Of a stretch of DNA of 38,600 nt, positions 5,502-34,210 are shown one piece after another; the first letter of the stretch is position 1; each line of letters opens with the position of its first letter. The notes under the pieces were generated by a model. The model saw nothing but the letters and a program-made list of their open reading frames with translations, made no database searches and was not told where the DNA came from. The position numbers were made by a program, and so were the translations under genes. The DNA is from Chrysophaeum taylorii (taxonomy: Eukaryota; Sar; Pelagophyceae; Pelagomonadales; Pelagomonadaceae): assembly GCA_029834535.1 (NCBI GenBank), contig JAQMWT010000244.1:1-38600 (forward strand), written 5' to 3'.

Positions 5502-5823
5502 TATGGCGGCACAGAAAAAGCACTCCCGACCCCCGGGTGACAAAGGGGGTACTCGCCGACTCGTCCTAGACCTCACTGAACGAGGAAAACACGGACTCGG
5601 GGTCGGATATGCTCGCCACACACCTTGCTCACGCCCACCAAGCCTCTCAACAAGATGGAGAGATGGTATATGATAGCAAGAATGCTACAAGAATACTGCA
5701 AGAATGCTTCTCACAAGAGAGATGTATGATGTCACTAGGAAGGTAGGGAAAGGCGTCCCGTTGAACGGGTATCAAGCCTCGAGAAAGGAGGGTAAGCCTT
5801 GGCGGTCAGGAGTTGCCGCCACA
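5502..5823 (-). mobile_element. Ty3/gypsy LTR (left arm, 3' LTR)
   Basis: The reverse complement starts TGTGGCGGCA and ends TGCCGCCATA, giving near-perfect short inverted ends. It closely matches the LTRs at 11469-11789 and 22089-22411. It lies just downstream (minus strand) of the integrase ORF, as expected for a 3' LTR. Its outer end is fused directly to G-alpha coding sequence. Confidence 0.88.
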
Positions 5824-5852
5824 GGACTCCCTGGTGAGAACACGAGCTGCCC

Positions 5853-7700
5853 TCAGCGAGTCCGGCGAGAAGCACGAGCCTTGGCGGAATGAGCATCTCG
5901 GGAACGAATCTTCTTGTAGACACGTTCAACGACAGGTTCGGGAACGCGTCCACTACGCAAAGTGAACTTAGGAATCAACACATCGATCTCATGCGGGGCG
6001 AAGTCGGTGACACAAGGAGCGGTACTGTTGTTGACCTTGGTCTTGTCGGTGAAACTGCGACCGTCCACGTCCTTATATTCCGGCTTAAGCTTGCGAGTAG
6101 AGAGATGTGAGGTAGGCTTGTAATAAGAAACCTTGTCATGGGGACCAAGATCAGCATAGAAATGCAGAGCGACTCGATCATTCACAAAATCATAGGGTTC
6201 ATAAACTTCAGCGACGTAAATCTTCTTTCGCCAATCGGACCGTTTGTTATCCGGAATCCGAAAGATAACGAACTTCCCATGCTTGTAATCATCCCGAAAG
6301 GTCTCCTTGGGCTTGGGCACAGCTCGATCGACCACTGGAGAAACCACCACAGGGGTGATCTGGCTAACATGAACACAACGGCGTTCAGGAGGAGAATCAA
6401 GAGACTCAATCCTGTAAGTGGCCAGGGACAAGCATTCCAAAATAACGAATGGACCGCGCCATTCCGGTCGAAGCTTGTTCTGAATAAAAGGGATGTAGAG
6501 CAGAACATGTGAACCTTCTTCATACTCCACATCGACATGGTCCGCTTTGTAGGCGAGACGTTGACGTTGCTTACGAAGAGCCTTCTCACGAGCTTCGTTC
6601 ACCGTAGCGGTATAGAACTTCAGCCTCTCGCGAGTCTCTGCCACAACATCGGAGCGAGTTTTCGGCAGGCGGCGGACATCAAGATCCATGATCGTGTAAT
6701 CGGTTGGCAATAAAGGCTGCCGGTTAAGACGAAGCATGAAAGGTGAGATCTGACTTCCCGGAATAAACTTACGATTGTAGCAAAAAGCAATGTACTCCGC
6801 GAATTCGGGCCATTCCGTGATCTTGCGGTTTTGAAGGCACGCACGGAGGAAAGCCTTGATAAAACCGTTGACCCTTTCCGCAGGATTAGCCTGAGCATGA
6901 TGCGGAATCGTGGTACTATACCGAACATTGAAGAGATGACAAAACTCTTCCATCAACTTGTTGACGAACTCCTTCCCATTGTCGGTACGAATCCTCTGAG
7001 GCAGATAACCTTTGAGTAATATATTCGCGACAAAAGACTCGAGGATTGACTCAGCAGTCTTATGGTGTAGTACGTCAAGAATCAAGAAATGAGAAAATGG
7101 ATCAAAAAAGATGATCAGATATGTCTCGGGACCAGCACTGGGCAAAGGTCCCAACAAATCCATACAAAGGACGACGCAATCACCATCATACACCGGTTCC
7201 TGAAGCAGACCTGCTCTCTTTGGTTCAGGCGTACGAGCTTTCTTGCACACTATGTAACCAGCAATATAAGCACCCACCTCATTAGACATGTGGGGCCACC
7301 ATAAACGTTCAAGTATCGACTGCACTGTACTTTGACGACCCATGTGACCACCATTGAGAGGTGTGTCATGGTACAATCGGATGATGCGCGTCCGTAAAGT
7401 TCGGGGTGCGACTATCATCGGGTGCAAGTCAGGTGCGGCACGGTAGAGAACTCCTTTCACCACTAGATAGCGATAATCGGCTCCGTACCGACGAAGAGAA
7501 TGGCCCTGAGCCATGCGATAACGAAAGTCCTCGCATGTAGCATCAGTGATCCGCTCTTTGGCTATCTCTTCCAAAGTCAAATTATCCGGAATCTTGTCGA
7601 TGTACTCTTGGTAATCATCGGCATCACGGAAAACACTAGGCTGGGTCTGCAGACGTTGCTTCTGACGTTGTTTCGTAGCATGAGACGCGACCAATTGCAT
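5853..7700 (-). CDS. Ty3/gypsy integrase (C-terminal pol fragment), left copy
   Basis: A 615-residue ORF nearly identical to 9591-11438. It shows the retroviral-type integrase DDE core (D181 in VLCMDLLG, D240 in RTDNGKEF, E275 in NPAERVN) and a GPY/F-like module near residues 410-430. The zinc-binding HHCC motif is damaged: the first Cys (149) is Tyr here (AGYIVC versus AGCIVC in the right copy). Other differences include G278/R, I281/V, S316/T and K493/E. There are no frameshifts, unlike the rest of the left arm. RT and RNase H are missing upstream, where repeat S abuts. The start codon is simply the first ATG after the repeat S junction and need not be a natural start. Confidence 0.92.
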   Translation of the reverse strand: MQLVASHATKQRQKQRLQTQPSVFRDADDYQEYIDKIPDNLTLEEIAKERITDATCEDFRYRMAQGHSLRRYGADYRYLVVKGVLYRAAPDLHPMIVAPRTLRTRIIRLYHDTPLNGGHMGRQSTVQSILERLWWPHMSNEVGAYIAGYIVCKKARTPEPKRAGLLQEPVYDGDCVVLCMDLLGPLPSAGPETYLIIFFDPFSHFLILDVLHHKTAESILESFVANILLKGYLPQRIRTDNGKEFVNKLMEEFCHLFNVRYSTTIPHHAQANPAERVNGFIKAFLRACLQNRKITEWPEFAEYIAFCYNRKFIPGSQISPFMLRLNRQPLLPTDYTIMDLDVRRLPKTRSDVVAETRERLKFYTATVNEAREKALRKQRQRLAYKADHVDVEYEEGSHVLLYIPFIQNKLRPEWRGPFVILECLSLATYRIESLDSPPERRCVHVSQITPVVVSPVVDRAVPKPKETFRDDYKHGKFVIFRIPDNKRSDWRKKIYVAEVYEPYDFVNDRVALHFYADLGPHDKVSYYKPTSHLSTRKLKPEYKDVDGRSFTDKTKVNNSTAPCVTDFAPHEIDVLIPKFTLRSGRVPEPVVERVYKKIRSRDAHSAKARASRRTR

Positions 7701-7786
7701 CGGATCTCCAGAGAGCTACACTATTATGTGTGCGACACTGGAACATTTCACACCTATCTCTACACGAGGGTTTCTCTCCGTAATAC
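7701..7786 (-). repeat. Repeat S, end segment (left central copy)
   Basis: This mirrors 9508-9584. It is the end of repeat S (TCCAGAGAGCTACACTATTATGTG) directly abutting the integrase fragment, and is separated from the rest of S by the SINE at 7787-8173. Confidence 0.75.
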
Positions 7787-9507: not shown

Positions 9508-9584
9508 TACGGAGAGAAAACCCTCGTGTAGAGATAGGTGTGAAATGTTCCAGTGTCGCACACATAATAGTGTAGCTCTCTGGA
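9508..9584 (+). repeat. Repeat S, end segment (right central)
   Basis: Matches 17907-17989 (TACGGAGAGAAAACCCTC through GTAGCTCTCTGGA). It abuts the 5'-truncated gypsy integrase fragment at about 9585. The same S-integrase junction occurs in the left arm. Confidence 0.8.
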
Positions 9585-9590
9585 GATCCG

Positions 9591-11438
9591 ATGCAATTGG
9601 TCGCGTCTCATGCTACGAAACAACGTCAGAAGCAACGTCTGCAGACCCAGCCTAGTGTTTTCCGTGATGCCGATGATTACCAAGAGTACATCGACAAGAT
9701 TCCGGATAATTTGACTTTGGAAGAGATAGCCAAAGAGCGGATCACTGATGCTACATGCGAGGACTTTCGTTATCGCATGGCTCAGGGCCATTCTCTTCGT
9801 CGGTACGGAGCCGATTATCGCTATCTAGTGGTGAAAGGAGTTCTCTACCGTGCCGCACCTGACTTGCACCCGATGATAGTCGCACCCCGAACTTTACGGA
9901 CGCGCATCATCCGATTGTACCATGACACACCTCTCAATGGTGGTCACATGGGTCGTCAAAGTACAGTGCAGTCGATACTTGAACGTTTATGGTGGCCCCA
10001 CATGTCTAATGAGGTGGATGCCAATATTGCTGGTTGCATAGTGTGCAAGACAGCTCGCACGCCTGAACCAAAGAGAGCAGGTCTGCTTCAGGAACCGGTG
10101 TATGATGGTGATTGCGTCGTCCTTTGTATGGATTTGTTGGGACCTTTGCCCAGTGCTGGTCCCGAGACATATCTGATCATCTTTTTTGATCCATTTTCTC
10201 ATTTCTTGATTCTTGACGTACTACACCATAAGACTGCTGAGTCAATCCTCGAGTCTTTTGTCGCGAATATATTACTCAAAGGTTATCTACCTCAGAGGAT
10301 TCGTACCGACAATGGGAAGGAGTTCGTCAACAAGTTGATGGAAGAGTTTTGTCATCTCTTCAATGTTCGGTATAGTACCACGATTCCGCATCATGCTCAG
10401 GCTAATCCTGCGGAAAGGGTCAACCGCTTTGTCAAGGCTTTCCTCCGTGCGTGCCTTCAAAACCGCAAGATCACGGAATGGCCCGAATTCGCGGAGTACA
10501 TTGCTTTTTGCTACAATCGTAAGTTTATTCCGGGAACTCAGATCTCACCTTTCATGCTTCGTCTTAACCGGCAGCCTTTATTGCCAACCGATTACACGAT
10601 CATGGATCTTGATGTCCGCCGCCTGCCGAAAACTCGCTCCGATGTTGTGGCAGAGACTCGCGAGAGGCTGAAGTTCTATACCGCTACGGTGAACGAAGCT
10701 CGTGAGAAGGCTCTTCGTAAGCAACGTCAACGTCTCGCCTACAAAGCGGACCATGTCGATGTGGAGTATGAAGAAGGTTCACATGTTCTGCTCTACATCC
10801 CTTTTATTCAGAACAAGCTTCGACCGGAATGGCGCGGTCCATTCGTTATTTTGGAATGCTTGTCCCTGGCCACTTACAGGATTGAGTCTCTTGATTCTCC
10901 TCCTGAACGCCGTTGTGTTCATGTTAGCCAGATCACCCCTGTGGTGGTTTCTCCAGTGGTCGATCGAGCTGTGCCCAAGCCCAAGGAGACCTTTCGGGAT
11001 GATTACAAGCATGGGAAGTTCGTTATCTTTCGGATTCCGGATAACAAACGGTCCGATTGGCGAAAGGAGATTTACGTCGCTGAAGTTTATGAACCCTATG
11101 ATTTTGTGAATGATCGAGTCGCTCTGCATTTCTATGCTGATCTTGTTCCCCATGACAAGGTTTCTTATTACAAGCCTACCTCACATCTCTCTACTCGCAA
11201 GCTTAAGCCGGAATACAAGGACGTGGACGGTCGCAGTTTCACCGACAAGACCAAGGTCAACAACAGTACCACTCCTTGTGTCACCGACTTCGCGCCGCAT
11301 GAGGTCGATGTGTTGATTCCTAAGTTCACTTTGCGTAGTGGACGCGTTCCTGAACCTGTCGTTGAACGTGTCTACAAGAAGATTCGTTCCCGAGATGCTC
11401 ATTCCGCCAAGGCTCGTGCTTCTCGCCGGACTCGCTGA
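9591..11438 (+). CDS. Ty3/gypsy integrase (C-terminal pol fragment), right copy
   Basis: A 615-residue ORF. The zinc-binding HHCC motif is complete (H111, H119, C149, C152: LYHDTPLNGGH and GCIVC). The catalytic core has D181 (VLCMDLLGPLP), D240 (RIRTDNGKEF) and E275 (ANPAERVN). A GPY/F-like module follows (KLRPEWRGPF, about 409-418). Residues 460-615 are an unusual C-terminal extension with an aromatic/basic segment (RKEIYVAEVYEPYDF, VALHFYADL) that I cannot assign; it is not an obvious chromodomain. Integrase normally inserts the retrotransposon cDNA. Upstream RT and RNase H are absent because repeat S interrupts. The 3' LTR starts 31 bp after the TGA stop. Confidence 0.93.
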   Translation: MQLVASHATKQRQKQRLQTQPSVFRDADDYQEYIDKIPDNLTLEEIAKERITDATCEDFRYRMAQGHSLRRYGADYRYLVVKGVLYRAAPDLHPMIVAPRTLRTRIIRLYHDTPLNGGHMGRQSTVQSILERLWWPHMSNEVDANIAGCIVCKTARTPEPKRAGLLQEPVYDGDCVVLCMDLLGPLPSAGPETYLIIFFDPFSHFLILDVLHHKTAESILESFVANILLKGYLPQRIRTDNGKEFVNKLMEEFCHLFNVRYSTTIPHHAQANPAERVNRFVKAFLRACLQNRKITEWPEFAEYIAFCYNRKFIPGTQISPFMLRLNRQPLLPTDYTIMDLDVRRLPKTRSDVVAETRERLKFYTATVNEAREKALRKQRQRLAYKADHVDVEYEEGSHVLLYIPFIQNKLRPEWRGPFVILECLSLATYRIESLDSPPERRCVHVSQITPVVVSPVVDRAVPKPKETFRDDYKHGKFVIFRIPDNKRSDWRKEIYVAEVYEPYDFVNDRVALHFYADLVPHDKVSYYKPTSHLSTRKLKPEYKDVDGRSFTDKTKVNNSTTPCVTDFAPHEVDVLIPKFTLRSGRVPEPVVERVYKKIRSRDAHSAKARASRRTR

Positions 11439-11468
11439 GGGCAGCTCGTGTTCTCACCAGGGGAGTCC

Positions 11469-11789
11469 TGTGGCGGCAACTCCTGACCGCTAAGGCTTAC
11501 CCTCCTTTCCCGAGGCTTAATACCCGTTCAACGGGACGCCTTTCCCTACCTTCCTAGTGACATCATACCTCTCTCTTGTGAGAAGCATTCTTGCAGTATT
11601 CTTGTAGCATTCTTGCTATCATATACCATCTCTCCATCTTGTTGAGAGGCTTGGTGAGCGTGAGCAAGGTGTGTGGCGAGCATATCCGACCCCGAGTCCG
11701 TGTTTTCCTCGCTCAGTGAGGTCTAGGACGAGTCGGTGAGTACCCCCTTTGTCACCCGGGGTCGGGAGTGGTTTTTCTGTGCCGCCATA
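11469..11789 (+). mobile_element. Ty3/gypsy 3' LTR (right arm)
   Basis: 321 bp, beginning TGTGGCGGCA and ending TGCCGCCATA. A short purine run (AGGGGAG, 11459-11465) lies just upstream and may be the polypurine tract. Internal sequence closely matches 22089-22411 and 5502-5823. The 11790-12119 stretch between it and G-alpha is unique upstream sequence absent from the left arm. Confidence 0.9.
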
Positions 11790-11908
11790 CAGTATCTTAC
11801 TCAGAGGTTCCCCCTGTAGTGAGAGAAGACCGTGGAGGGCCGTTTCGAGACTCGAACGGCTAATGGGCATTTTCGTCTCGCTGCGCTCCGCCGTTCGTGT
11901 AAAAACCC

Positions 11909-13187: not shown

Positions 13188-13969
13188 TGGACCTAGTATA
13201 ATTTCCTCTTTTATCTATTTTACGATACTCCGGTACCATTGGGAGTCTATGGTTGGAGCCACAAGTACCAGCCACACACTGCTTCATATGTGACAGGATG
13301 TGCTGCTTAGCAAGTATATGCTTGTGGTTCTCATGCCAGGGGCTTCCCTCGCCGATGACGACTGAATTCCTGTGAGAAGGATTTTCCGGGTGCTTGGTGT
13401 CATGTGTGAATGCACCTGCCTGTGACTTGGGTTCATATTTTAAACCTCTGTCTACTGTAATGGGTCATGACAGCTGATGACATGTGGCACTGCAGTTGGG
13501 TAAGTGGTCAATTTGCGTCGATCATGCCACGCTGAGTTCCTAGAAATGTCATTGGCCAGTGTTCCACACTCTATTGCAGTGCCATTTTGGCGCAGTTATG
13601 TAGGTTGGATAATGATGGGCACGGATCCCCCAGCTACACGAACATGCAGCCCTTTTAAGCATATGGATTTCCATGGGCGCGCAGGGCTGGCGGCGACGCA
13701 AGCCAAATGTTCAAGTGTAGTAAGTCGGAGTTAGAAAGTTTATAATGCGGGGCGGTTTCCGTATTGGCCACACGAGGCTGTATTAGTAGAGCTTTCGCTC
13801 GCAGGGACTCTCAGGCTGGCTCCACATCAGCAAACGATTAGTATCGAAGTGACGCAGCCACGCCTTAGCTGGGTGCGCGCCGAAAGCATGGGTGAGATTG
13901 GCCACTCTCGCGGTGGGCCAAGTTCGCTGGCGCGATAGCGCAGGCGCATCAGCAGCCGGAGATCCGCTT
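13188..13969. other. G-alpha 3' flank, no gene seen
   Basis: Conserved between arms (mirror of 3721-4502). A short plus-strand ORF (13504-13734) is present in both arms but is only 76 codons and is conserved at the DNA level like its surroundings, so it is not supported as a gene. No clear poly(A) tract marks a processed retrogene end. Confidence 0.5.
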
Positions 13970-14590
13970 TCGACACGTAGTGTCACATACGGGTATGGGC
14001 ATTTCCCGAAAAGCCGGGTATTGAGAGACCCGCATGGAGCGGGGTTGACGGGTACAGGTACGGGTACACCTACAAAACGCACTATTTTGGGGCTTAGGGG
14101 GTACGGGTTCGCGGAGGGTGCGGGTACAAGATGGGCCTGGGCACTCGGAGGGTCTGGGTGCATAATGGGCGCGGGTACACGGAGGGTACGGGCACGTGAT
14201 GGGTCTGGGTACACGGAGGGTGCGGGTACGTGGAGGGTACGGGTGCGTCGTGGGCGCGGGTACGTCGAGGAGGCAGGTACGCTCGAGAGTGGGCACGGTG
14301 TTCGGGGACACCCACTTGGGAAGAGGTCGTTTTTGTACGTTTCAGCACGTTTCCGGACTCTCTTGACCATCGGGTATACCCGACGCCCTCCGTACCCGGT
14401 ACCCGACTTCTCGTTCATGCGGGTGCCCGGCCATTCGGGTATACCCGGCGAATTTCCGGGTGAAGGTGCGATACCCGGTGGTCCGGGGCGGGTATTATCC
14501 GGACCCGGGACGTACCCGGACACGGGATGTACCCGGACCCGGGATGTACCCGGACCGGAACCAGTCCTGAATACCGACATGCCCGTACCA
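13970..14590. repeat. GGGTAC-rich minisatellite (right)
   Basis: Imperfect tandem units such as GGGTACACGGAGGGTGC and GGGTACGTGGAGGGTAC, then a second block of CCCGGACxCGGGATGTAC-type units around 14500-14560. The G-rich strand is plus. The 313-codon minus ORF running through it is low-complexity and not supported as a gene. Confidence 0.85.
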
Positions 14591-14808
14591 AAACCCTCGC
14601 TCCGCGAGCGACGCTGATGCGGTCGAAACCCAATCAAAAAAATCGAAACGTGTTGGACACAGACAACGAAGCGCGTAGCACGTGTGGCTGAGAGAGTTAG
14701 ACAAGTGCAGGCCAGTACGCTCACTTGATCCCAAATCTCAGACCCCGCAAAGTTCGTGCTGCTTCGGAATGGTCCCTCGCAAACACTCGGAAGTCGCCCG
14801 ACCCCGCA

Positions 14809-15785
14809 TTAGAGTTGAACTTCAATTTGGACGTGCTCGATGAACTTGTAGAAGGCAACGTCCACATTCAGTCGCCGAGGAACGCGGGCGACCTGCAGAG
14901 TGGCGGCGCGCTCGATGGCGCCGAGGTCGTCGAACCCGATCCGCACGGCCAGAGCGCGCTCTCGTGGCCGTAGACGGTCGTCGACAGCTACCGGCGACGG
15001 CGCAGCGTGAGTATCGTCGCCGTCGCCATCGGTTCTCTGCTCTTTCCAGCCGCCGTCGCGGTGCGATCGATGGTTTACGGGTGCAGCTTGGCGCTAGCAG
15101 GCCGATACGTCGTCGGTCGGACCGGGGAGCGCGATGTCGTTGTCGTCCTTCTCCTCCTTCTCCTCCTCCTCCTCCTCCTCGATGATCTCGACATCGAACA
15201 TTTCGAGCACGTTCCAGCACGCGCATGACGCGCGCGGCGGCATCGGCGGCGAGCGATCGGTCGAGCTCCTTGCCTCGCAACGAAGAGGTCGGCCAATGTC
15301 CGAGTACTTGTCAACCTCGACCCAATGGGCGAATGCGCCGGAGAAACCCAACACTCGGCGTCGAGAGCAACGGGTCCGGAGAAGCATCTGGCACGTGTCG
15401 GTAGGCGGCTTGCAGCTGGTCGACGGAGCGTTCGAGGCCTTGGAACTCGAACCAATCGCGACTCGACGCAGCTGCGCGGCGGCGGCGCCCAGGTGGTCGT
15501 CCAGCCGGGCCTTGAGGCCTGCGATCTCCTCCTCGAATGCGTCGATCTCTCGCTGGAGAGCGTTAAGGTCACACCCCTGCATTTTCTTGAACCCGACCTG
15601 CTTGCGCTCAGACATCCGCGCTCGCATCGCCTCTCTTGATCTTCCGAGTCAGTGCCCGACGTAGAGGATCCCACTCGTCCTCCTGCTGCGCCTCCATCGC
15701 GAAGCACGCTGCGAGTCGCCCGGGTGCGAGCCTGTCAATGTCGCTCCTCCATTCCCAGATGTCGCGTGTGGCGGTAATCCTTGCG
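14809..15785 (-). pseudogene. Broken coiled-coil protein gene (right-arm copy)
   Basis: Minus-strand remnant of about 325 codons. A first segment (about 15785-15630) is in one frame; after a frameshift near 15625 the frame continues MSERKQVGF, a heptad-like helix (LQREIDAFEEEIAGLKARL) and an acidic run of about seven glutamates near 15165-15185. A TAG at 15094-15096 interrupts, but the same frame stays open beyond it and ends at TAA 14809-14811 with a plausible globular end (IGFDDLGAIERAA, NVDVAFYKFIEHVQ). Other short coiled-coil-like pieces sit in alternate frames, so more indels are likely. Family unknown; a nucleoporin-type coiled coil is a loose resemblance only. Introns instead of mutations are possible. 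Confidence 0.45.
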
Positions 15786-15845: not shown

Positions 15846-16807
<962 letters not shown>

Positions 16808-16853
16808 AGTTGTGACCTATTAAAAATAGGTTATAGGATTGATAGACAGATTC

Positions 16854-22088: not shown

Positions 22089-22411
22089 TGTGGCGGCAAC
22101 TCCTGACCGCTAAGGCTTACCCCCCCCTCTCTCGAGGCTTGATACCCGTTCAACGGGACACCTTTCCCGATCTTCTTAGTGACATCATACCTCTCTTTTG
22201 TGAGAAGCATTCTTGCTGTATTCTTGTAGTTTCCTTGCTATCATATACCATCTCTCCATCTTGTTGAGAGGCTTGGTGAGCGTGAGCAAGGTGTGTGGCG
22301 ACCATACCCGACCCCGAATCCGTGTTTTCCTCGTTAAGTGAGGTCTAGGACGAGTCGGTGAGTACCCCCTTTGTCACCCGGGGGTCGGGAAGGTTTTTCT
22401 GTGCCGCCATA
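22089..22411 (+). mobile_element. Ty3/gypsy 5' LTR of the methyltransferase element
   Basis: 323 bp from TGTGGCGGCA to TGCCGCCATA, closely matching 11469-11789; differences are scattered point changes and short length changes such as in the C-run near 22121. It is followed by a primer-binding site and gag-pol in the same orientation, so it acts as the 5' LTR. The 3' LTR of this copy is not in the window. Confidence 0.9.
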
Positions 22412-22413
22412 CG

Positions 22414-22431
22414 TGGTGGAGTACACGAGAT
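22414..22431 (+). promoter_or_regulatory. Primer-binding site
   Basis: TGGTGGAGTACACGAGAT starts two bases after the LTR. The TGG start pairs with the CCA end of a tRNA, as in most LTR elements. The matching tRNA is not identified. Confidence 0.55.
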
Positions 22432-22842
22432 CGTGCGACTACATCGGTCGCCGACGAGCGAGTGCTGCCGTACGTGTTGTATTACGTGGTCCGGATTTGT
22501 ACGTGAGCCCTGATCAAGCACACGGAGTTCCATTGGACCGGTTTGCGTTGAGAATATACGCGAACGTTGTTTGTGTTCGTACGATCCGAGTGACGACGAA
22601 CACGCGTGCGAGTTGGAAATCGCAGCGCATTCTCCCGGGAATTTATTTTGGTATAGCTGAACGGTGGAAGCTGTTTAGCGAGTGGGATCACTACCCACGG
22701 GCATTTTTGAATTGCCAGCGGATTGGAATTCCGCGAGTGCTGTTTTTACAGCGACAGATAGCGTTGTTGGAATCAACGTGAATTACTTCGAGTGATCGGA
22801 TCCGGACGTGTTTCGAGATTCTTGATCGATATTTGATACAGT
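22432..22842 (+). other. Leader region with a possible short ORF
   Basis: A plus frame (22371-22781) crosses the LTR end and continues with protein-like sequence (LYVSPDQAHG, AERWKLFSEWDHYPRAF) to TGA at 22779-22781. It has no start of its own outside the LTR. It could be a remnant of a gag N-terminal piece in another frame or a chance frame. Confidence 0.3.
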
Positions 22843-23188
22843 ATGGAGATAAACGCAGACGTGCGTGAGGAAGAATCTCCTCCAGTTCTTCCCGCCGCCC
22901 CTGAGATAGGCCGCGAGGAAGGTGAATTAAGAGAGGCCGAGGCAGTCGACGTTGCTGACGTGCCCCTGATGTGCCTCCGGATACTGCCATTTTTTCGCCG
23001 TTGAGTCCAACGACTCCGGACCGTGGCGAGCGTGTTACTATTGAGCGCGGATCTGCAGCCCGAAGTCGACTTCGTGAAGACCTCGAGCAGAGACGTCGCG
23101 AAAATGAACGATTAGCTGAGCGTTTTGCCAGCAAGATGCGGATAAGCCGTTTGGGAATGCGGATCCGCTGATCTTACGAGATCCTTTT
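22843..23188 (+). pseudogene. Gypsy gag, N-terminal part with two frame breaks
   Basis: ATG at 22843 opens an acidic leader (MEINADVREEE). Similar-quality coding sequence continues in a second frame from about 22971 (TTPDRGERVTIERG, then a charged helix REDLEQRRRENERL) and in a third from about 23140, which joins the 23189 ORF. Two indels, near 22965-22975 and 23140-23150, would account for this. The copy is therefore not functional as written, unless the breaks are sequencing errors. Confidence 0.55.
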
Positions 23189-25558
23189 TTGTGGGGCAAG
23201 AGAACGTGCCCGCACTGTGGGTTCTTCTGGACCACCCATGATGAAGATGAACACGGAAATCGCGTAGTTTGCAACCGCGATCCGGATCGTTACTACTGTG
23301 CGATGTGGAAGCGAATTCGTAAGCAGAAGAAGCAGCCCATATCGCGGTCCGATTGGGCGAAGCGTGATGATGCATCTCATGCGAACGCCACGCACGGATC
23401 GGAGCCTTCTAATGAAATTCAAACGGCCCTCACCGATCTTGGAACCACAATGGCGACCATGGTGAGCGAGGTCAGAAGCATCAAGGATACTACGTCGTTT
23501 TCTACACGACAGCGAGACGGACGATCACCTTCTAGACGATCGTCACGCCGACATCGAAGCCAGAGCCCTGATCGAAAAGCCCATACTGCTCAAAGCAGCC
23601 CGAGTCCTTGCCGTCACCGGAGCTCTAGTCGCAATTCGCGCCGGCGCCGACGTCATCGACATTACGATGACGAGTATGACGGAGGCAGATATCAGGATAG
23701 TTCGGGACATTCGAGCGCAACTTTCGCGTTCCAATCTTTATGCGACGCGCCGCCAATGTCGGGGGTTGTCTTTTACCCGACGGCGCGCCCTGCCCGAGTC
23801 TCCGATGATGTTGCCGATGTCGCTGTGACGAGCAGCCATCGTTTGCAACAGGAGCAACATACCACCAACGCTCGGATCGTTCGGTGGCCTTCTACATCGT
23901 ATGTGAAAGCAATGTCAGATGCTACTTGGGATTCTCCGCACTACTGGGAAGACTCAGATTCGGAGACCGACGAACCCATGCCGCAGGTTCCAGTGTCCCC
24001 CCATTCGTCAATGTGCATGTCTTGCAGGGCAGTTCACGATGATGACGTTAGACCTTTTGAGTTGACGTCGGGGACGACGTCTTCTTTTCCTACGGGGCCC
24101 CCCGAGACCGTTTTAGCCGATGTTTTAGCCGATACCGTTTTAGTCGCAGCAGAGCAGACCACAGCGGCGCCGATGGAGGAGAAGTTGACGGGAATGTCCG
24201 ATTTGATGGACGAGAAACGATTACCAGAAGAGATAAAGGAGGAGATATATGTGCCTCCGATTGAGAAGTGTCAGAATTTGTTGTCAGCGAAACTGGGGAA
24301 TGAAGAAGCAGCCGAAGCGACGAGCGCCAATATAGATTCAGCGGCGAGATGTAGTACGCCAGATATAGCAGCGGTGACGATGCAGATTCCGGGCGATGCG
24401 AAACCGGAGATACGATGTCATCACACTGCACTGTCGCCGAGCGATGGGGAAAAGATCGAGCAAGACCTCATCACCATCGGTTGCCTGGACCCTGGTACCC
24501 TTACGTTTATAGTGGGTCATATTTATAGACGACGAGACGGGCCGAAGTTTGCAACGACTTTAGGCGTGGATGGAATGGCTGATGTCTCTTATATTTGTCG
24601 TGGGATGGTTGAAAAACTGGAAAAGGATAGCATCATCCTTGACCGGGGCGATCTTCCAGTCGAGCGCACTTTGTATGGGTCAGGATTGAACAAAACGACT
24701 ATCCACAAATGGGTTGCATTGCGGATTGCGCTTGCGGACGACGTAGCCGTTCCAGTTGTTGCTATTGTGGCCGATACTAATCATCTATTTTTGCTGGGAG
24801 CGCGCGATATTCGGGTGTTTGGAGCCATAGTGGACTACCCGCGGAATCGCATTGCGTTTCTACGCACACAAGTCGCTTACGGGCGCAAGAAGTTAAAGGT
24901 GCAGGATCGACGAGTAGATTCTCCGATTTTGACGTTCAGAACAACTTATGACGAGAGCAATCCCGTGGTAGTTCAGGTTTATGGGCAACAGCACCATGCG
25001 ATGCAACAAAGCCTGAGCACAGTTGAGAACCGAGTCTACGCTCGCTTGTGCAAGATTGAAGACCTCCAGCGTCCACCGCCGAAACGAGCGGGAGCTTCGA
25101 CGACTTGGGGAGTTCCTCCAGTTACGCCTTCTCAAAGTTCGAACAGCGATGCTTATGAAGTGATAGCCTATGCTGCGCGCACGATGAAGGTCGAGCCTGG
25201 GCGCACCTACTGCGTGCCAGTCGCTCTTTCAGAGCCCGTGGAAACTGGGCAAGTTTTCGTTGCTACGTCTTCTGGGTACGAGCAACTCGGGGTAGTCGAT
25301 GGAATGTGTTCTTCTCCTGAGGATCATGATAAGTTCGCAGCTCGAGTGGCGATATCCTCTACCCAGGATGTGCCGACCGTGATCACTCAAGGTGAAGTCC
25401 TTGCTTTGGGCGATATTGTTCGTTTTGATGACGAGCGGAATGCTGAGACGGTCGACGATTTAACGAAGGATGGTAAGCCGAATCTAACAAGGCTAACCTA
25501 TCATTCACTGTTTCGGTCGCAAACCATCTTACTCAAGGCAATGCGGCTCCCGAACTGA
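23189..25558 (+). CDS. Ty3/gypsy Gag-protease polyprotein segment
   Basis: About 789 codons. Numbering starts at 23189, which is a TTG inside a longer frame, not a real start. Near the N-terminus is a cysteine/histidine cluster (CPHC at 7-10, H16, C29, C37) unlike the usual CCHC knuckle. A strongly Ser/Arg-rich segment follows (about 108-170), suggesting RNA binding. The middle is acidic and low-complexity. Residues about 445-550 look like a retropepsin: GVDGMADVSYI (about 460) in the active-site position and LLGARDIRVFGAIVD (about 535) in the flap/ILG position. The normal D-T/S-G is D-G-M, so catalysis is doubtful. The rest to residue 789 is unassigned. Ends with TGA; the following ORF is in another frame with no overlap. 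Confidence 0.75.
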   Translation: MWGKRTCPHCGFFWTTHDEDEHGNRVVCNRDPDRYYCAMWKRIRKQKKQPISRSDWAKRDDASHANATHGSEPSNEIQTALTDLGTTMATMVSEVRSIKDTTSFSTRQRDGRSPSRRSSRRHRSQSPDRKAHTAQSSPSPCRHRSSSRNSRRRRRHRHYDDEYDGGRYQDSSGHSSATFAFQSLCDAPPMSGVVFYPTARPARVSDDVADVAVTSSHRLQQEQHTTNARIVRWPSTSYVKAMSDATWDSPHYWEDSDSETDEPMPQVPVSPHSSMCMSCRAVHDDDVRPFELTSGTTSSFPTGPPETVLADVLADTVLVAAEQTTAAPMEEKLTGMSDLMDEKRLPEEIKEEIYVPPIEKCQNLLSAKLGNEEAAEATSANIDSAARCSTPDIAAVTMQIPGDAKPEIRCHHTALSPSDGEKIEQDLITIGCLDPGTLTFIVGHIYRRRDGPKFATTLGVDGMADVSYICRGMVEKLEKDSIILDRGDLPVERTLYGSGLNKTTIHKWVALRIALADDVAVPVVAIVADTNHLFLLGARDIRVFGAIVDYPRNRIAFLRTQVAYGRKKLKVQDRRVDSPILTFRTTYDESNPVVVQVYGQQHHAMQQSLSTVENRVYARLCKIEDLQRPPPKRAGASTTWGVPPVTPSQSSNSDAYEVIAYAARTMKVEPGRTYCVPVALSEPVETGQVFVATSSGYEQLGVVDGMCSSPEDHDKFAARVAISSTQDVPTVITQGEVLALGDIVRFDDERNAETVDDLTKDGKPNLTRLTYHSLFRSQTILLKAMRLPN

Positions 25559-25728
25559 TGCTTTTGAGCTCAGTGCAGAAAGCGTCTCCTTCTGCCGATA
25601 AGAAGAAGAATTATCGTCAAGAATCGCTCCGTAACGACGATTTCGACCGACGAACTGACGAGGAGGAAATGAAATGCCGATAAGTTACAGAATGCGGGAT
25701 TCGCCGAAGGTTTGAAAAGGTCCACTGG

Positions 25729-27828
25729 GTGCCGATCACGTATCGCAAGATTGTGATGCTCTTCAGCGGCGCCGGAGGAAGTACTTTAGGACTGCAACGA
25801 GCGAACGAGTTGTGCGGGACGTCGTTTCGAGTCGTCCTTGCTCTTGACTCGTCAACAGCTGCCAACAAGGTTCATCAGACGAATTTTCCGAAGATACCTG
25901 TGGTCCAGCACACGCTCTGTGGACGATATGACTCGACCCTCCGGTTGATCAAGGCTTATTTGCCTGAAGCGGAATGGTCATCGTCGATGTGTATAGCGTC
26001 TCCGCCCTGCGTTCATTCCGCACTCTGCAACTTGACATCCAGAGATGTTGGCAAGGGTGTTACGGCCACTAACTGGACGATGAAGTTGTGCAAGATGGCT
26101 GGCTTCATGATGTGGCTGATTGAACAGGAGGCGTCCATTATTTCGTATATAGCGCGTTTACACCCTCACGTGTACGTCGTCAATTTTCATGATATCACAC
26201 CTACTCTGATGAGCTCTCGCGTGCGATTGTTGGTTTCCAGTCACCCACTGCACTTGCAAGAGGCTCCGAAGACATGTGTGAACATGCAACAAAAATTTGC
26301 TGCAGCTTTAGGTTATGCTCATGAACGCCACCTTCTCCAGCTGAATAATCTTGGCTCGCCCCGAGAAGCAACAGATACGGCTTACACCGTTACGCGGGTT
26401 CCTCTTCGTTTGGGACCGCATCGCTCGGACACTCAGCCTTTGACTCTCAAGATGACGGCCGAGTTGCTCACGATGCCGGTGGATCATGATTGGGCTAGCT
26501 TGTCTAAGACAGATTCGTTCAAACATTTAGCATCTGTCGTCCCTCCAGCTACTCTCGCAATTTTAGCAGTCGATCTGCACAACTCCGTGACCAGAGGTTT
26601 CCGCCAAAGTGGTGAAGTCCTGCCGACCGCGCTGAGCCCGACAGATCGATCCTTTGAGCAGTATTTACGAATCTCCGACACCACCTTTCGTCACGTAGAG
26701 ATTCCGCTGTTAAATACGCGCACTCGTGTCGTTAAGTGGGTGTCAAAGGATGATCTCCAGGATCCCACTAAATGGGAAACGCCAGAAGTTCCTATGCTTC
26801 CGCTTCCAACTGATGCGCCGGGGACGGCTCATGCTTTTTCTGCTGCCCCCCGACAATCGAAAGTGGACGTTCCGCCGGATCCTGAACCTGAACAGGAGCC
26901 GAAAGTAAGGAGCGAGCCGAATGTGCGTGTCAAAGGTGAAAAGACCAATAAGAGCCACCCTGAGGTGAGGTTCAAATACGAAGAAAAATTCGATGTGCCA
27001 TGGAAGGATGCACCGCGCGATGCGGACGGTGTACCGTTACCGCAGATTCCCGAGCACGTCAAGGACAATGATGCGATGAAAGTCGTAATTCCGACGAAGG
27101 AAGAAGTTGAGAAGGTTGTTCGAGATCTAGGAATTCCCGACAACCCGCATCTGGATGATGATGCGAAGATGATGTTGAGCCATTGCGTGCAATACGCGTG
27201 GGCTTTCTTTGATCCGATTATGAGACCCGTGGACTCGCCACCGGTTTCTTTACGCTTTAAAGACGCAAACCCACGACCGATCAAGATGACGCCTTATAGG
27301 TTGACGCCAGCAAAGCTCGAGTGTCTCAGAAAGCAGATCACTGAGTGGTGTCGCGATGGAGTCATCCGACCGGCGAACTCTCTGTGGGGATTTCCTGTAC
27401 TGATGCTGCCTAAGAAGGGCTTTAATGCTCGTAAGCTTCGTAACGCAAAAGTTAAAGCGTCGACAATTTCACCTCGAGACACGTCCTACTATCGCCCACC
27501 TTCTAACTATAATGTCAAAGGTACTAGTTTTGATCGTCCTGTCTACTCCCAGTCTACTAATCGCAACTCACGCTCCAATATGTCATTAATGGACCGAGCT
27601 ACGTTTCAAGTAGACCGTCTTCGCCATTTATTCAGTAAATTGCAAGAAGCGAATCCTAATCCCTCTACCGACTATAAAATGGTACAGGAAGAAATGAAGA
27701 GCTTACTAAGTACACTTTGGACAACCGCTTCTCAAGCTTATACACAGTCTCTCGATCCCGAAGAAGCTACTCAAGTTCTGCAGAGAAATCTGCTGCCTCT
27801 TACCCTTATCCGTCCGTTGAGAACGTGA
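25729..27828 (+). CDS. Retrotransposon ORF: C5-cytosine DNA methyltransferase + RT N-terminus
   Basis: The frame is open from 25684; 25729 is a GTG and the first ATG is 25756. Residues about 8-285 (from 25729) carry C5-cytosine methyltransferase motifs in order: motif I LFSGAGGSTLGL (11-22), motif II-like VVLALDSSTAANKVHQTNFP (35-54), motif IV with the catalytic Cys ASPPCVHSA (C94), an IEQ in the ENV position (131-133), motif VIII-like SSRVRLLVSS (162-171), motif IX-like SPREATDTAYTVT (210-222) and motif X TAELLTMP...ASVVPPATLAILA (243-280). A long charged linker follows. Residues about 460-563 are the start of a Ty3/gypsy reverse transcriptase (MTPYRLTPAKLECLRKQI, DGVIRPANSLWGFPVLMLPKKG). 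After 27417 the frame continues in unrelated sequence to a stop at 27828. Its product would methylate cytosine in DNA; the target sequence is unknown. Confidence 0.88.
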   Translation: MPITYRKIVMLFSGAGGSTLGLQRANELCGTSFRVVLALDSSTAANKVHQTNFPKIPVVQHTLCGRYDSTLRLIKAYLPEAEWSSSMCIASPPCVHSALCNLTSRDVGKGVTATNWTMKLCKMAGFMMWLIEQEASIISYIARLHPHVYVVNFHDITPTLMSSRVRLLVSSHPLHLQEAPKTCVNMQQKFAAALGYAHERHLLQLNNLGSPREATDTAYTVTRVPLRLGPHRSDTQPLTLKMTAELLTMPVDHDWASLSKTDSFKHLASVVPPATLAILAVDLHNSVTRGFRQSGEVLPTALSPTDRSFEQYLRISDTTFRHVEIPLLNTRTRVVKWVSKDDLQDPTKWETPEVPMLPLPTDAPGTAHAFSAAPRQSKVDVPPDPEPEQEPKVRSEPNVRVKGEKTNKSHPEVRFKYEEKFDVPWKDAPRDADGVPLPQIPEHVKDNDAMKVVIPTKEEVEKVVRDLGIPDNPHLDDDAKMMLSHCVQYAWAFFDPIMRPVDSPPVSLRFKDANPRPIKMTPYRLTPAKLECLRKQITEWCRDGVIRPANSLWGFPVLMLPKKGFNARKLRNAKVKASTISPRDTSYYRPPSNYNVKGTSFDRPVYSQSTNRNSRSNMSLMDRATFQVDRLRHLFSKLQEANPNPSTDYKMVQEEMKSLLSTLWTTASQAYTQSLDPEEATQVLQRNLLPLTLIRPLRT
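27418..27778 (+). other. Unrelated sequence fused in frame to RT
   Basis: After LPKKG the RT should continue with its D/G-rich palm residues, but the reading frame instead encodes Ser/Asn/Thr-rich sequence and a helix-like part (MDRATFQVDRLRHLFSKL). Codon and base composition shift here toward A/T. It may be the tail of another gag-like element joined by insertion or deletion. The frame ends inside the inverted repeat at 27826-27828. Confidence 0.55.
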
Positions 27829-28092
27829 TCTTTTCCTTATCCTTCTTCTTCCTTTCTACACAATCAAATAGTCCTCTGATTTGTGCCTACGCTCATCATC
27901 ATGGTCTAGCACGTCCCGAGGTATCTAGCACCATACACGTTACCTTTCTCGTGTAGTTCTAGATGCCGCCTGTCGTGTTCTGAGGATATAGGGAACATAC
28001 CTTTTCATTCCCCGAATTAACTACTTCCAGACGTTCATGATGAGACGGGATGGTTTCCCAGGTGACTTACCACTGCTTGCTAAATGCTCTGC
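27779..28092 (+). repeat. 314-bp inverted repeat, left arm
   Basis: TGCAGAGAAATCTGCTGCC... matches the reverse complement of 29688-29999 along its length, with scattered differences (for example the tract around 27930-27950). The inner boundary is at CTCTGCA (28086-28092). No obvious target-site duplication flanks the pair. Confidence 0.92.
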
Positions 28093-28620
28093 AGGTTATG
28101 GGCCCAGGCGGGTCCCTGAGAAACCATGTGTTAAAACGTGCACGTAACCTGTGGGTTTTGAACAGTTACCGCGCCTGTTTAGCCTCTACACGAAAACACA
28201 CTTGTGAATCCAACGCCATTACCCAATGGTTGGGCTGTATATAATTTTTTTTTTGCACACGTGACCGTGCAACCTTGTGTGCACCTGCTCATAGCATCGT
28301 ATTGTCATGTCAATGTTGATGTGTGTGTAATTGGCTAACCTGTACTCTTGCACACATGTTATGGAATATTTTGGGTACGTCCACTCGTACATTCCATGGC
28401 AATGCACTTAACAAGCTCCTTGGGAGCACCAAAACTAACCAGCTGCCGGAGTGACTACGCTTAGCGACACTACTCTGGACTCACAGCTTGCACCGTCGTC
28501 AAATAGACATCTTTCCATCGAAAACGATGAGTGTACATAGACACCGATAGACAGACCCCCTTAGAATGTCTAGACAGTGTCAACTGAGTGACTGAACCCA
28601 CAGGTTCCCCGTCAAGTGCT
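28093..28620. other. Upstream region of the gag-like gene, no gene seen
   Basis: A/T-rich sequence between the left inverted repeat and the ATG at 28621. A TATATAATTTTTTTTT stretch occurs near 28237. No supported ORF or RNA gene. Confidence 0.5.
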
Positions 28621-29700
28621 ATGGCAGAACATGCAGCACGAGCCGCACCCAAGGCGATCACAGGTGCGGATATATTTAAGCTCGAAGCTCCTGTAGTTGA
28701 GTTTCTTAACGACGGAAATCGATTTCAGCTTCAGACTCGCAAGGTATCCTTGCAAATCAAACACATTAAGCAATTATTACGGTCCAGTCATGCCGATGCT
28801 TTCCTCGAGTACGACTCGTACGAAGCATATACTCGGTCATGCAAGGACTACGAGATCCTCCGGAATCAAATTCTCGATCGCGTTTTCCTGGAATGGAAGA
28901 CCGATAGGGCTGCTGATCTCCGTTTAGCTGTTGATGAATTGCCCCCTGAGTATCAGGAATGGCATTTCACGAACGAAGCTTTCCCCCACTTACCTGATGC
29001 AGAAGTAGCTCAGCTAGCTACTGTCTGTTACGATTATGAAGTCAAGGCATTACGTCCTGAAATCAATGCTCGTTTCTTAGAAGAGGAACGAATCTTAAAT
29101 CGCGCGCACCCGAAGGCACTAGCTTTCGACACCCGTGTTCGTGCCCCTGTTACCATGTTTTCGTTAACTGCTGCTGACTGGCACACTTATCAGAACACGT
29201 ATGCTACATTCTTGCATACTTACTTCAATCTTGAAAGTGTTGGAAAACCGGCACTTGCGGCCTGGCCCGCCATCAATGAGGTATACAACAAAAGTTATTT
29301 ACCCAACAAGGCTCGAGCTATTATGCTCATCGCCTTTAGTCACTACGAGTCTGTTACGACTACTGATGTGTCCTATTTGAAACAGCAATTTAACTCTGTT
29401 GTTTATAATCCTAACTGGTACGTCCATGTATTTATCGAAGCTGTCCTAGCATTTAGGCAAATCTCTTACCAACTTAACCAGGAAGAGACTGACCTTCAAT
29501 TCGACTTTGGCACTCTTTGTATAAAAATCTATGAAGAGATACATCGGCATTATGCCGATAATACCAGCAACAATCGTTACGATCGTGGTTGGGTAGATTG
29601 GTGTTATATGTACGAAACCCGATCTTCATCTCGACCTGTGCCAGAAGCTGAACGATTGTGTCACCCTACCAACCCTATCTATATTTTGCAGAGCATTTAG
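28621..29700 (+). CDS. Gag-like protein, family unknown (full-length paralogue)
   Basis: The frame opens at a GTG (28588); the first ATG is 28621, giving 359 codons. It is a paralogue of 15857-16807 over most of that protein: KVSLQIKHIKQLL, YDSYEAYTRS, FLEWKTDRAADL, WPAINEVYN, PNKARAIML, NPNWYVHVFIEA. The C-terminal 85 residues, lost in the other copy, include a Trp/Tyr/Cys-rich segment (YDRGWVDWCYMYE). No catalytic triad, nuclease or zinc knuckle is recognised. The last codons (ILQSI) and stop lie in the right inverted repeat. It may be the only gene of a 2.2-kb mobile element; a structural Gag-type role or a novel transposase are both open. Confidence 0.7.
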   Translation: MAEHAARAAPKAITGADIFKLEAPVVEFLNDGNRFQLQTRKVSLQIKHIKQLLRSSHADAFLEYDSYEAYTRSCKDYEILRNQILDRVFLEWKTDRAADLRLAVDELPPEYQEWHFTNEAFPHLPDAEVAQLATVCYDYEVKALRPEINARFLEEERILNRAHPKALAFDTRVRAPVTMFSLTAADWHTYQNTYATFLHTYFNLESVGKPALAAWPAINEVYNKSYLPNKARAIMLIAFSHYESVTTTDVSYLKQQFNSVVYNPNWYVHVFIEAVLAFRQISYQLNQEETDLQFDFGTLCIKIYEEIHRHYADNTSNNRYDRGWVDWCYMYETRSSSRPVPEAERLCHPTNPIYILQSI

Positions 29701-29999
29701 CAAGCAGTGGTAAGTCACCTGGGAAACCATCCCGTCTCATCGTGAACGTCTGGAAGGTTAATTCGGGGAATGAAAGGTTATGTTCCCTATATCCTCAGAA
29801 CACGACAGGCGGCATCTAGCACTACACGAGAAAGGTTAAGTGTATAGTGCTACATGCCTCGGGGCGCGCTAGACCATGATGATGAGCGTAGGCACAAATC
29901 AGAGGACTATTATATTGTGTAGAAAGGAAGAAGAAGGGTAAGGAAGAGATCACGTTCTAAACGGACGGATAAGGGTAAGAGGCAGCAGATTTCTCTGCA
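29688..29999 (-). repeat. 314-bp inverted repeat, right arm
   Basis: Reverse-complement partner of 27779-28092; it ends GGCAGCAGATTTCTCTGCA at about 29999. It contains the last four codons and stop of the gag-like gene. The following 30000-30155 is purine-rich (GAAGAAAGAAAGAAAGAGG) with no gene. Confidence 0.92.
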
Positions 30000-30155
30000 C
30001 CCCCTCGAGGTGTCTTAAGCGCAAGGTGCGACTGTAGAGCATCTCTTGAGAAAGATGATGATGAAGAAGAAAGAAAGAAAGAGGAAAGGAAGGAGAATAC
30101 AGTCTTGATGGTCGCAGAGGTCACATAAGAGGCATCAAGAGTGTAACAGGGTGTC

Positions 30156-32250: not shown

Positions 32251-34210
32251 TCAATCCTGTAAAGGATTGTCGTCAGAGGCATGATGCATGCCGAGTAGAG
32301 AGCGAAAGCTGGAGAACTCAGCAGCAAGTGGCTTTGTAAAACCATCCGCCACGTTTAGCTTGCCAGGAACATGATGGACTCGTATTTTCTGAAGCGATAT
32401 GTACTCACGAATCTTAAACCATCTGGTCGACAGTGCCTTGGATCGAGAGGACCCATCTGGGTTATTAGAGGTGTGAACAGCGGCAGCATTGTCAGACAAA
32501 AGAGGTAGGCTTCTGATGAAGCGCATATCTTCAGCAATTGGGTTGTCATTGTCATCGAAGTCAACAGGGTCAGCGGTGTTCTCACCATTAGCATTGTTGA
32601 CGTAGAAGGTGGGGTTGACGACAAAGGAGAGTTCCAACAGCAACTTGCGTAGCCAAACAGCTTCATCAGCACAAATACTGAGGGCAATCAACTCAGCTTC
32701 GTGAGTTGAGCAGGAGACAATCGGTTGAAGTTTGCTTTTCCAACCAATAAGGCAGTTGAAAAGATAGAAGACAAACCCGGTGGTAGATTTCCTATCTTCC
32801 TGTGCTAAGGAAGGGGCATTGTCAGCGTCAACCATGGCAACTAAAGGGTCAAACTGTCCAGTATATACATCCTGTGGTTGGTAGTCGACCACAGTGGATA
32901 GATCAATTCGATTAGCGGAGACAGTGCGAAGGTGAGCTTCAATGGCATTACCTTTAGGGTGAAACCAGAGGCGAAGTGAGCGGTTTTCCGGCTTCTTGAG
33001 GTAGCGAAGCAAATGCTCTAGCATTTGGACGTGAACATATGTGGGTGCATGCATACCACGCGAACATCTGCCCAAGGCTTGCGAGAAGTCAGGTCTGCAG
33101 GCAACTTGCATGAACACCAGCTTGCCAAGGAGGGTGGCAAAGTGCGAATTGATGTACAACTCTGTTTCAGTGTTGGGAGTGCCATCTTTATACTTGAAGG
33201 ACGATGACATAGGATATTTAAGCGGGGTCAGTTGCTGCAAGACTGGGTGATCAGCGAAGAGTTCATCCAGCTTGGCTTGCACATCCAGAGAAATGGAGCC
33301 GTCAGATGTGCGACACACGCGCATGCCCAGGAGGGTATGGACAGGTTCAAACTGCTCTACAGCATACCGTTTGTGGAGGGCATCCTATAATTCAGTACGA
33401 AGAGGGTCGTCATTGGACACAATAACAATGTCGTATACAGACAGACTGCATACGACGAACTTAGCATGTGCGGATACTCGAGCATATAGGCAAGAGTCCG
33501 AATGCAGGCGTTTGTAACCAAGGCTACGGAATCAGCCGTCTATCTCTTTGTTCCAAAGGGATGGTGATTGCCTGAGTCCATAAAGTGACTTCAGCAGTTT
33601 CGGTAGGCGTCGGCCCTTGTACTTAGCGTCATCGGGGTCGATAAGCTTGATGCCGTCTGGTAATTGAACATAGACATTGGCATCGATGTCAGACTGAACG
33701 AAGGCGTTCGGGACGTCTGCATGGTAGACAGGCAATTGCTTGTATGCTGCAATAGCTAGTAGTACCCGGATTGCGGTCATAGTGGCCATGGGGCTGAAGG
33801 TACCAAAGAAATCGGCGCCAAGAGATGCTAGGAAGCCACGTAGTACGAGGCGAGCCTTGTGCTTAACGTATTTGCCTGCAGAGTCTGTTTTAATCTTCAG
33901 CACCATCTTGCTGTCAATAGGACGAGAGACACCGTCGGGTAAGGAAAGTTTGAAGCAGCCAAAGCGGATAATGTCGTGGAGTTCCTTGGCGATGGCCTTG
34001 AGGTAGGCGTGCCTGTTTTCAGGCGACAAACCGTGGAGGCACTTAAGTTTATATTCGTCAATGGAAACGTCCGCTTCTTGGACCTTATATTCGTCAGGAC
34101 CAACAGTGGCTGGTGAATTATAGTTTAGCGACGTTGCGGTCGAGGCAGTGTGCGCAACTTCGGGATAAGCGGAAACAGCGTCAGTAGGAGTAGTAGGGCA
34201 GATTCCAGTT
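32251..34210 (-). pseudogene. Ty1/copia reverse transcriptase-RNase H, decayed
   Basis: The frame runs from about 34210 to 32251 with two in-frame stops (TGA 33532-33534, TAG near 33388). The RT part has SPENRHAYLKAIAKEL, FSPMATMTAIRVLLAIAA, the first catalytic Asp in HADVPNAFVQSDID and KSLYGLRQSPSLWNKEI, all typical of copia RT. The YVDD active site is replaced by SVYDIVIVSNDD, so the paired Asp are lost. RNase H follows with DRKSTTGFVFYLFNCLIGWKSK, STHEAELIALS, SLPLLSDNAAAVH and HHVPGKLNVADGFTKPL. An active copy would make cDNA in a virus-like particle; this copy cannot. The open frame of RNase H (33324-32251) suggests recent loss or selective read errors. Confidence 0.93.

Follow-up and report, generated by a model that had tools for sequence, protein, structure and literature searches.

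The closest described counterpart of the element reported here is KnitGypsy-Dnmt3 of the alga Klebsormidium nitens (de Mendoza 2018, PMC5890265). In the passages of that paper devoted to it, this is a gypsy long terminal repeat (LTR) element under purifying selection, with a methyltransferase in its Pol frame whose catalytic residues are conserved. The same paper describes SymbioDIRS-Dnmt3 and SymbioLINE-Dnmt of Symbiodinium, in which cytosine-5 (C5) methyltransferases are carried by high-copy retrotransposons. We have examined a stretch of 38,600 nucleotides (positions 1 to 38,600 of contig JAQMWT010000244.1 of Chrysophaeum taylorii; the whole of it is called the window) that contains part of an element sharing these features. 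We hold it to be nearly certain that this element is a Ty3/gypsy LTR retrotransposon with a C5-methyltransferase in its polyprotein.

How does it differ from its predecessors? By its published description, KnitGypsy-Dnmt3 carries an enzyme of the DNMT3 class and has DIRS-like repeats (PMC5890265), whereas sequence searches of solved structures brought up no DNMT3 affinity for the enzyme described here, and direct LTRs were found at both ends of two copies. The hosts are also different, Klebsormidium in the one case and in the other a fucoxanthin-type alga with about a thousand first-look candidates. SymbioDIRS, in the account of PMC5890265, has its methyltransferase in Pol beside the reverse transcriptase (RT), as here, and the SymbioLINE enzymes form an orphan lineage, much as the enzyme here fits no class tested. 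On the other hand, DIRS elements have a tyrosine recombinase and split repeats and LINEs have an endonuclease, while the present element has an rve integrase and direct LTRs. An earlier note on this DNA had cited dinoflagellate gypsy-type elements and Klebsormidium as precedents; Klebsormidium does provide a gypsy case, but the dinoflagellate elements are LINE and DIRS in the pages of PMC5890265 that treat them.

Sarre 2025 (PMC12344493), citing de Mendoza 2018, mentions in its relevant passage an LTR Copia with a DNMT3. The corresponding passages of PMC5890265 report gypsy, DIRS and LINE cases and a Symbiodinium Copia without a DNMT; ‘Copia’ in the later paper is perhaps a slip for gypsy. Methyltransferase-bearing elements of stramenopiles are not wholly unheard of, because PMC6338049 names stramenopiles, along with red algae, green algae and charophytes, as groups that have Ty3/Gypsy and DIRS elements encoding DAM and DCM. 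That statement does not separate adenine from cytosine enzymes, and it names neither a stramenopile gypsy C5 case nor copia.

A methyltransferase in the polyprotein of a Ty3/gypsy element

A single open frame on the forward strand of the window (25684-27828, 714 codons) runs from the methyltransferase through a linker into the start of a gypsy RT. The earlier note had read C5-methyltransferase motifs I, IV, VIII, IX and X in that order in one frame, then the linker and an RT start reaching LPKKG. All of these are where it placed them, together with an equivalent of motif VI that it had not listed (table 1). The Pro-Cys, the glutamate of motif VI and the arginines of motif VIII follow one another in the C5-methyltransferase order, with E-Q-E or E-H-E in the place of ENV. 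Among 36 copies the cysteine of motif IV is kept in every one (34 SPPC, one PPPC, one SPLC), as are the glutamate of motif VI and both arginines of motif VIII.

The profile PF00145 recognizes the window frame at E = 4.9e-5, with 23.3 bits against a curated cut-off of 22. RVT_1, the other profile that the earlier note had proposed, has no match in the window frame because the RT stops at LPKKG, but it is matched in a fuller copy, L021. The PF00145 score of L021 is 26.4 bits. Two members of a more distant lineage (C, below) score higher than the window, L044 with 37.6 bits (E = 2.3e-9) and L045 with 34.2 bits (E = 2.5e-8), each in two stretches. The NCBIfam model dcm gave 16.5 bits for the window and 20.4 in another test, against a cut-off of 100.65; it was likewise far below cut-off for L044 and for L043 and L041, two further enzymes introduced below. 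By these sequence criteria the domain is a C5-cytosine methyltransferase, and methylation of cytosine is its predicted activity.

The genome searched comprises 70.8 Mb in 697 contigs, the window being contig C244. In it the methyltransferase has at least 131 matches at 79-100% identity, the window included (131 scored of 1,007 first-look candidates), and 106 of the 131 matches listed are free of stops. They split into subfamily A, that of the window, and subfamily B, at about 80% identity. We examined 20 loci of about 10 kb, mostly chosen for long frames. An RT lies downstream on the same strand in all 20, accompanied in 18 by an integrase. The proposals that the methyltransferase of a multi-copy element sits between a protease-like region and the RT, and that such elements form a family of their own, are both upheld.

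The longest frames exceed 3,000 codons. One of them, that of L021 (its pieces searched apart), holds an N-terminal and a protease-like part, neither of which matches a Pfam family, followed by the methyltransferase (PF00145, E = 5.8e-6), an RT that is complete, unlike that of the window (RVT_1, 1.1e-12), RNase H (RT_RNaseH, 7.7e-26) and integrase (zinc finger H2C2, 1.5e-18; rve, 6.7e-12). The order RT–RNase H–integrase, that of Ty3/gypsy, was read in this copy. The LTR pair L030/L051 is direct, 312 bp long and 95% identical, with a 5-bp target duplication, ACCAT. The pair L025/L052 is also direct (323 bp, 93%), no target duplication being seen; two more pairs have unclear ends.

The window copy itself is a 5' half, in which the methyltransferase frame is intact and the RT is broken off at 27419 by other sequence. 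Positions 22089-27419 match L040 continuously at 96.8%, and 22129-27419 match L034 at 97.2%. Neither the 812-codon Gag/protease frame nor the protease-like region within it has a Pfam match; the Cys/His stretch of the former is present in 14 of the 20 loci, and the latter is matched wholly or partly in all 20. The active site of retroviral-type aspartic proteases is usually D-T/S-G. At the protease-like region (24560-24595 in the window) V-D-G-M-A is found in 18 of the 20 loci, not D-T/S-G. The window also holds, on the reverse strand at 5502..7715, a 3' end of the same subfamily, 94% identical to L033 and 96% to L039.

Fold and class of the enzyme

To which class does the enzyme belong? The 50 best structural matches listed for the predicted fold are all C5-methyltransferases. 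Foldseek places DNMT2 first (E = 9.5e-10); its list also has DNMTs that are bacterial or methylate DNA, with E between 1e-7 and 1e-6. VIA-align puts 8yf3 (14.9) and HhaI (14.1) above DNMT1, DNMT5 and DNMT3 (tied, at about 13); DNMT2 is not among the 50 VIA-align entries listed, a list that leaves kinship to DNMT2 possible. Sequence searches of solved structures gave a best E of 0.048, for L044, and otherwise 0.18 or worse. Matches of the element enzyme to DNMT2 (E = 0.19-0.37) were non-significant and confined to the N-terminal part; the same comparison for the host's DNMT2-like gene gave 3.9e-39. We conclude that the gypsy enzyme, as far as its sequence allows a judgement, fits none of the DNMT classes that could be tested. 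Its compact size, put at about 280 residues in the earlier note, proved not to be special, since the domain has 299 residues and the single-domain DNMT3 chains listed have 264-291.

The entry 8yf3, top VIA-align match to the model alongside HhaI, is a C5-carboxymethyltransferase that uses carboxy-S-adenosylmethionine; it is also the sole, non-significant, sequence match of L044 among solved structures. A first structure model, built from 17 close copies, reached a predicted local distance difference test (pLDDT) of 36 and was discarded.

Older relatives and selection

A genome-wide search with PF00145 (123 scored of 474 candidates) uncovered lineage C, a second gypsy lineage, whose enzyme is 42% identical to that of the window. 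This lineage has at least 139 matches, some of them pieces of one copy (130 scored of 892 candidates). In L045 the RT is in the same frame as the methyltransferase (RVT_1, E = 4e-13). Of the lineage C matches, 62 cover 290 or more of the 302 residues, and 34 of these are followed on the same strand, at a distance of 0.7-1.1 kb, by an RT match. With 150 RT candidates scored out of 889, some RTs are expected to have been missed.

Residues 1-302 of L045, compared with a database of about 5.8 billion proteins, found P0002 only (1,780 candidates scored). This protein of 982 residues, from an ENA record and likely from a different organism, has the same domain followed by RT and RNase H (35% identity, E = 7.3e-40), and PF00145 does not match it. 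Profile A1, searched against the same database, found only P0001, which was non-significant (7,996 candidates scored). The 28 pattern matches in viral contigs included no relative.

Between subfamilies the ratio of nonsynonymous to synonymous change (dN/dS) is 0.05-0.07, with dS near saturation; the RT of L040, whose frame has stops, is left out of this range, its values being 0.09-0.11 against B. The methyltransferase is under purifying selection between the subfamilies. The gypsy lineage has kept it for so long that lineages have diverged to 80% and 42% identity.

A second capture by Ty1/copia, and the host enzymes

At L043, on contig C96, lies a distinct C5-methyltransferase with canonical PCQ and ENV (PF00145, E = 2.2e-8). 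Its frame runs on to an integrase of the copia type (rve, 0.0019, short of the curated cut-off; zinc and catalytic residues recognized by eye), and a Ty1/copia RT follows (RVT_2, 3.4e-39), read in L043 only. This enzyme has at least 138 matches in the genome, some of them pieces of one copy (127 scored of 642 candidates), and in 43 of the 48 best-scoring a copia integrase lies 0.4-2.2 kb downstream on the same strand. A BLASTP comparison of the L043 enzyme with lineages A, B and C gave no alignment at E of 10 or less. The protein database yielded no relative (3,188 candidates scored), and solved structures, solved DNMTs included, yielded no match; the Copia of Sarre 2025, in contrast, is said there to carry a DNMT3. 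We read these loci as two superfamilies, gypsy and copia, of one genome, each holding a methyltransferase of its own.

Two observations in the window touch on the copia family. Positions 20432-19995 (reverse strand) share 29% identity with the copia methyltransferase (E = 2.7e-10), contain a stop and have no Pfam match in the part searched; they are possibly a diverged relic of it. Positions 33178-34083 (reverse strand) hold a copia RT that shares 35% identity with the RT of the methyltransferase-bearing family; beside it tblastn found no copia methyltransferase.

Four PF00145 matches were read, and two are likely host genes, the DNMT2-like L041 and the DNMT5-like L042 (E = 5.2e-131). Motif IV of L041 is SPPC, as in the gypsy enzyme. 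A host DNMT1 or DNMT3 gene was not recognized among the PF00145 matches, most of which were judged by their place on the profile; genes with introns could be missed. DNMT5 is described as a maintenance enzyme. The relevant passages of PMC9998398 report that diatoms and pelagophytes have DNMT5a and that CG methylation is lost when it is knocked out in a diatom.

What might the enzyme do for the element?

The best explanation of the whole, to which we assign a probability of about 55%, is that a gypsy lineage has long held a polyprotein methyltransferase that marks its own complementary DNA (cDNA) or new insertion. That methylation of its own cDNA is the main function of the enzyme seems to us an even bet. 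The methyltransferase would be made within the Gag-Pol polyprotein and packaged with the RT, and would then methylate the double-stranded cDNA fresh from synthesis, or else the new insertion. The element would enter the genome already marked, and the host DNMT5-like enzyme could copy the mark. The gain may be that otherwise unmarked cDNA is shielded from host attack, or that fast silencing after landing lowers the cost to the host. We consider such marking the likeliest role because the enzyme is fused to an RT and because the SymbioDIRS enzymes, in the experiments reported in PMC5890265, proved capable of de novo CG methylation in yeast. That a high-copy gypsy family and a different, copia family of one genome each carry such an enzyme suggests that these enzymes help the elements to spread or settle.

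Several observations weigh against this explanation. CpG is not depleted, its observed/expected ratio being 1.13-1.36 in the 20 loci (flanks included) and 1.06 in L045; the window LTR alone is lower, at 0.76 over 324 bp. Nor are C/T differences enriched at CpG: among six A copies the value at CpG is 0.044 and the overall one 0.046, and among 12 B copies they are 0.050 and 0.053, with L023 and L031 excluded. Given the high CpG ratio and the lack of CpG-biased C/T differences, the element bodies bear no trace of lasting CG methylation. Either the mark falls outside CG, or it is lost with time, or repair restores deaminated sites. The Klebsormidium enzyme was inactive in yeast, a result called inconclusive by its authors where PMC5890265 reports it. 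The C-terminal half of the structure model is of low confidence, and motif I is altered in P0002. Synonymous sites, near saturation between A and B, are saturated towards C, and dN/dS is accordingly rough; pairs within subfamily A give 0.18-0.64 on few changes, and dN/dS of the methyltransferase exceeds that of the RT. As a separate observation, C/T differences among L021-L040 are commonest at C before T, A[C]T reaching 0.090 in B against 0.053 overall.

Might the enzyme instead act on RNA, as DNMT2 does, methylating the element transcript or a tRNA primer and so aiding packaging or priming? DNMT2, which methylates tRNA, is one of the best, though non-significant, sequence matches and first in Foldseek, the SPPC of motif IV recurs in the host DNMT2-like gene, and RNA methylation is raised for SymbioLINE in the discussion of it in PMC5890265. 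However, the Foldseek list also contains bacterial and DNA-methylating DNMTs, so that an RNA enzyme is not favoured by it, and a place beside the RT suits a DNA product equally well; we regard action on RNA as unlikely. Retention for a non-catalytic role, such as nucleic-acid binding or stabilization of the polyprotein, would fit the PF00145 alignments, which take in only an N-terminal stretch in the copies of the window and L021, and the altered motif I of P0002, a protein that PF00145 misses. It is somewhat less likely still in view of the catalytic Cys, Glu and Arg, which do not vary in any of the 36 copies, nor between lineages that share 35-42% identity.

The many copies, and the failure to recognize a DNMT1- or DNMT3-like host gene among the rows judged, would agree with an enzyme that mainly alters host methylation in trans, for example by overloading or redirecting silencing, as parts of PMC5890265 propose for Symbiodinium. 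Linkage to an RT predicts a role in cis, however, and CpG observed/expected is above 1 in the three host gene regions sampled; a main role in trans appears very unlikely. As to misassembled loci or chance motifs, the window copy is indeed cut at 27419, but the methyltransferase and RT are linked in 20 of 20 loci and the same layout recurs in P0002. These copies refute the joining by misassembly that the earlier note had named as its possible undoing, and we treat an artefact of either kind as ruled out.

Other features of the window and genome

The positions of the features are collected in table 1.

Table 1. Features of the methyltransferase-bearing gypsy element and neighbouring sequence (window positions), with the copia family.
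Feature	Position	Strand	Remarks
5' LTR of gypsy copy, begins TGTGGCGG	22089..22412	+	match of 324 bp; 98% to 3' LTR of L039, 94% to LTR of L025
5' element part, LTR to first long open reading frame (ORF)	22413..23119	+	within continuous matches to L040 and L034
Gag/protease part, Cys/His cluster near start	23120..25558	+	812-codon open frame
Retroviral-protease-like region, atypical active site, VDGMADVSYI ... LLGARDIRVFGAIVDYPRNRI	24530..24865	+	by eye, against the usual protease pattern
Methyltransferase, linker and RT start, open frame	25684..27828	+	past 27419 the frame continues in other sequence
C5-cytosine methyltransferase domain (predicted), 299 residues	25729..26625	+	PF00145, predicted fold, catalytic residues kept
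Motif I LFSGAGGSTLGL	25759-25794	+	located in frame
Motif IV SPPC, catalytic cysteine	25999..26010	+	also in lineage C and P0002
Motif VI equivalent, IEQEAS (I-E-Q-E-A for usual ENV)	within 26110..26136	+	Glu invariant in alignment A3
Motif VIII SSRVRLL (xxRxR)	26212..26232	+	located in frame
IX-like motif	26434-26478	+	located in frame
Motif X FKHLASVVPPATLAILA	26518-26568	+	located in frame
RT start (Ty3/gypsy) to LPKKG	27232..27420	+	cut at 27419; residues 519-597 match PDB weakly (E 0.18)
Other repeat sequence beyond the gypsy break	27420..30000	.	inverted repeats 27779-28093 and 29687-29999 around ORF 28588-29700
3' end, with integrase and LTR, of a different copy in the same gypsy subfamily	5502..7715	-	H2C2 5.6e-14, rve 3.3e-11
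Inverted duplicate of the 5502..7715 3' end	9576..11790	+	I1 arms 99% complementary
Copia family with methyltransferase before integrase (L043, L046, L049, L050)	G000 C96:61700-69000

A large inverted duplication occupies 2367-5831 and 11461-15315 of the window, in blocks that are 96-100% complementary. One arm holds an intact G-protein alpha gene (12120-13187) and the other a broken copy; the G+C content of the intact gene is 0.43, against 0.64-0.67 in the three host gene regions sampled. The ORFs at 28588-29700 (forward strand) and 15857-16816 (reverse strand) look alike by eye, and neither matches a Pfam family. The former is flanked by inverted repeats of about 310 bp and may be part of a mobile element not yet described.

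In the genome at large the chlorophyll-binding family has 84 matches, fucoxanthin-type light-harvesting genes that share contigs with the elements (C96, C351, C390 and C552, for example). The one gene examined most resembles fucoxanthin chlorophyll a/c proteins, and its top entries are diatom proteins. By these genes the host is a chlorophyll-c alga, probably an ochrophyte.

Conclusion

In kind, such an element is already known, because capture of a DNMT by gypsy Pol has been published for Klebsormidium in the account of PMC5890265 cited above. Searches of the open-licence PMC literature, as distinct from subscription papers, brought up no description of a C5-methyltransferase borne by a gypsy or copia element in a fucoxanthin-type alga. 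As far as that literature shows, the new points are a described C5 case in such an alga; an enzyme that has been assigned to no class; old subfamilies and a protein from elsewhere that share one layout; and a separate copia capture in the same genome.

DNA methylation is usually a weapon against transposons, and elements that keep a methyltransferase of their own need explanation. This genome is a good test bed for one: the gypsy and copia captures have more than 100 matches each, some of the frames are long and intact, and the host genome is small. It could settle whether the enzymes mark their own cDNA and whether DNMT5 preserves methylation that transposons have started. It is a long shot that the two LTR superfamilies supply, with their own methyltransferases, the de novo methylation that the host lacks, while the host DNMT5-like enzyme only copies it. 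If that were true, the methylation pattern of the genome would be written by its transposons.
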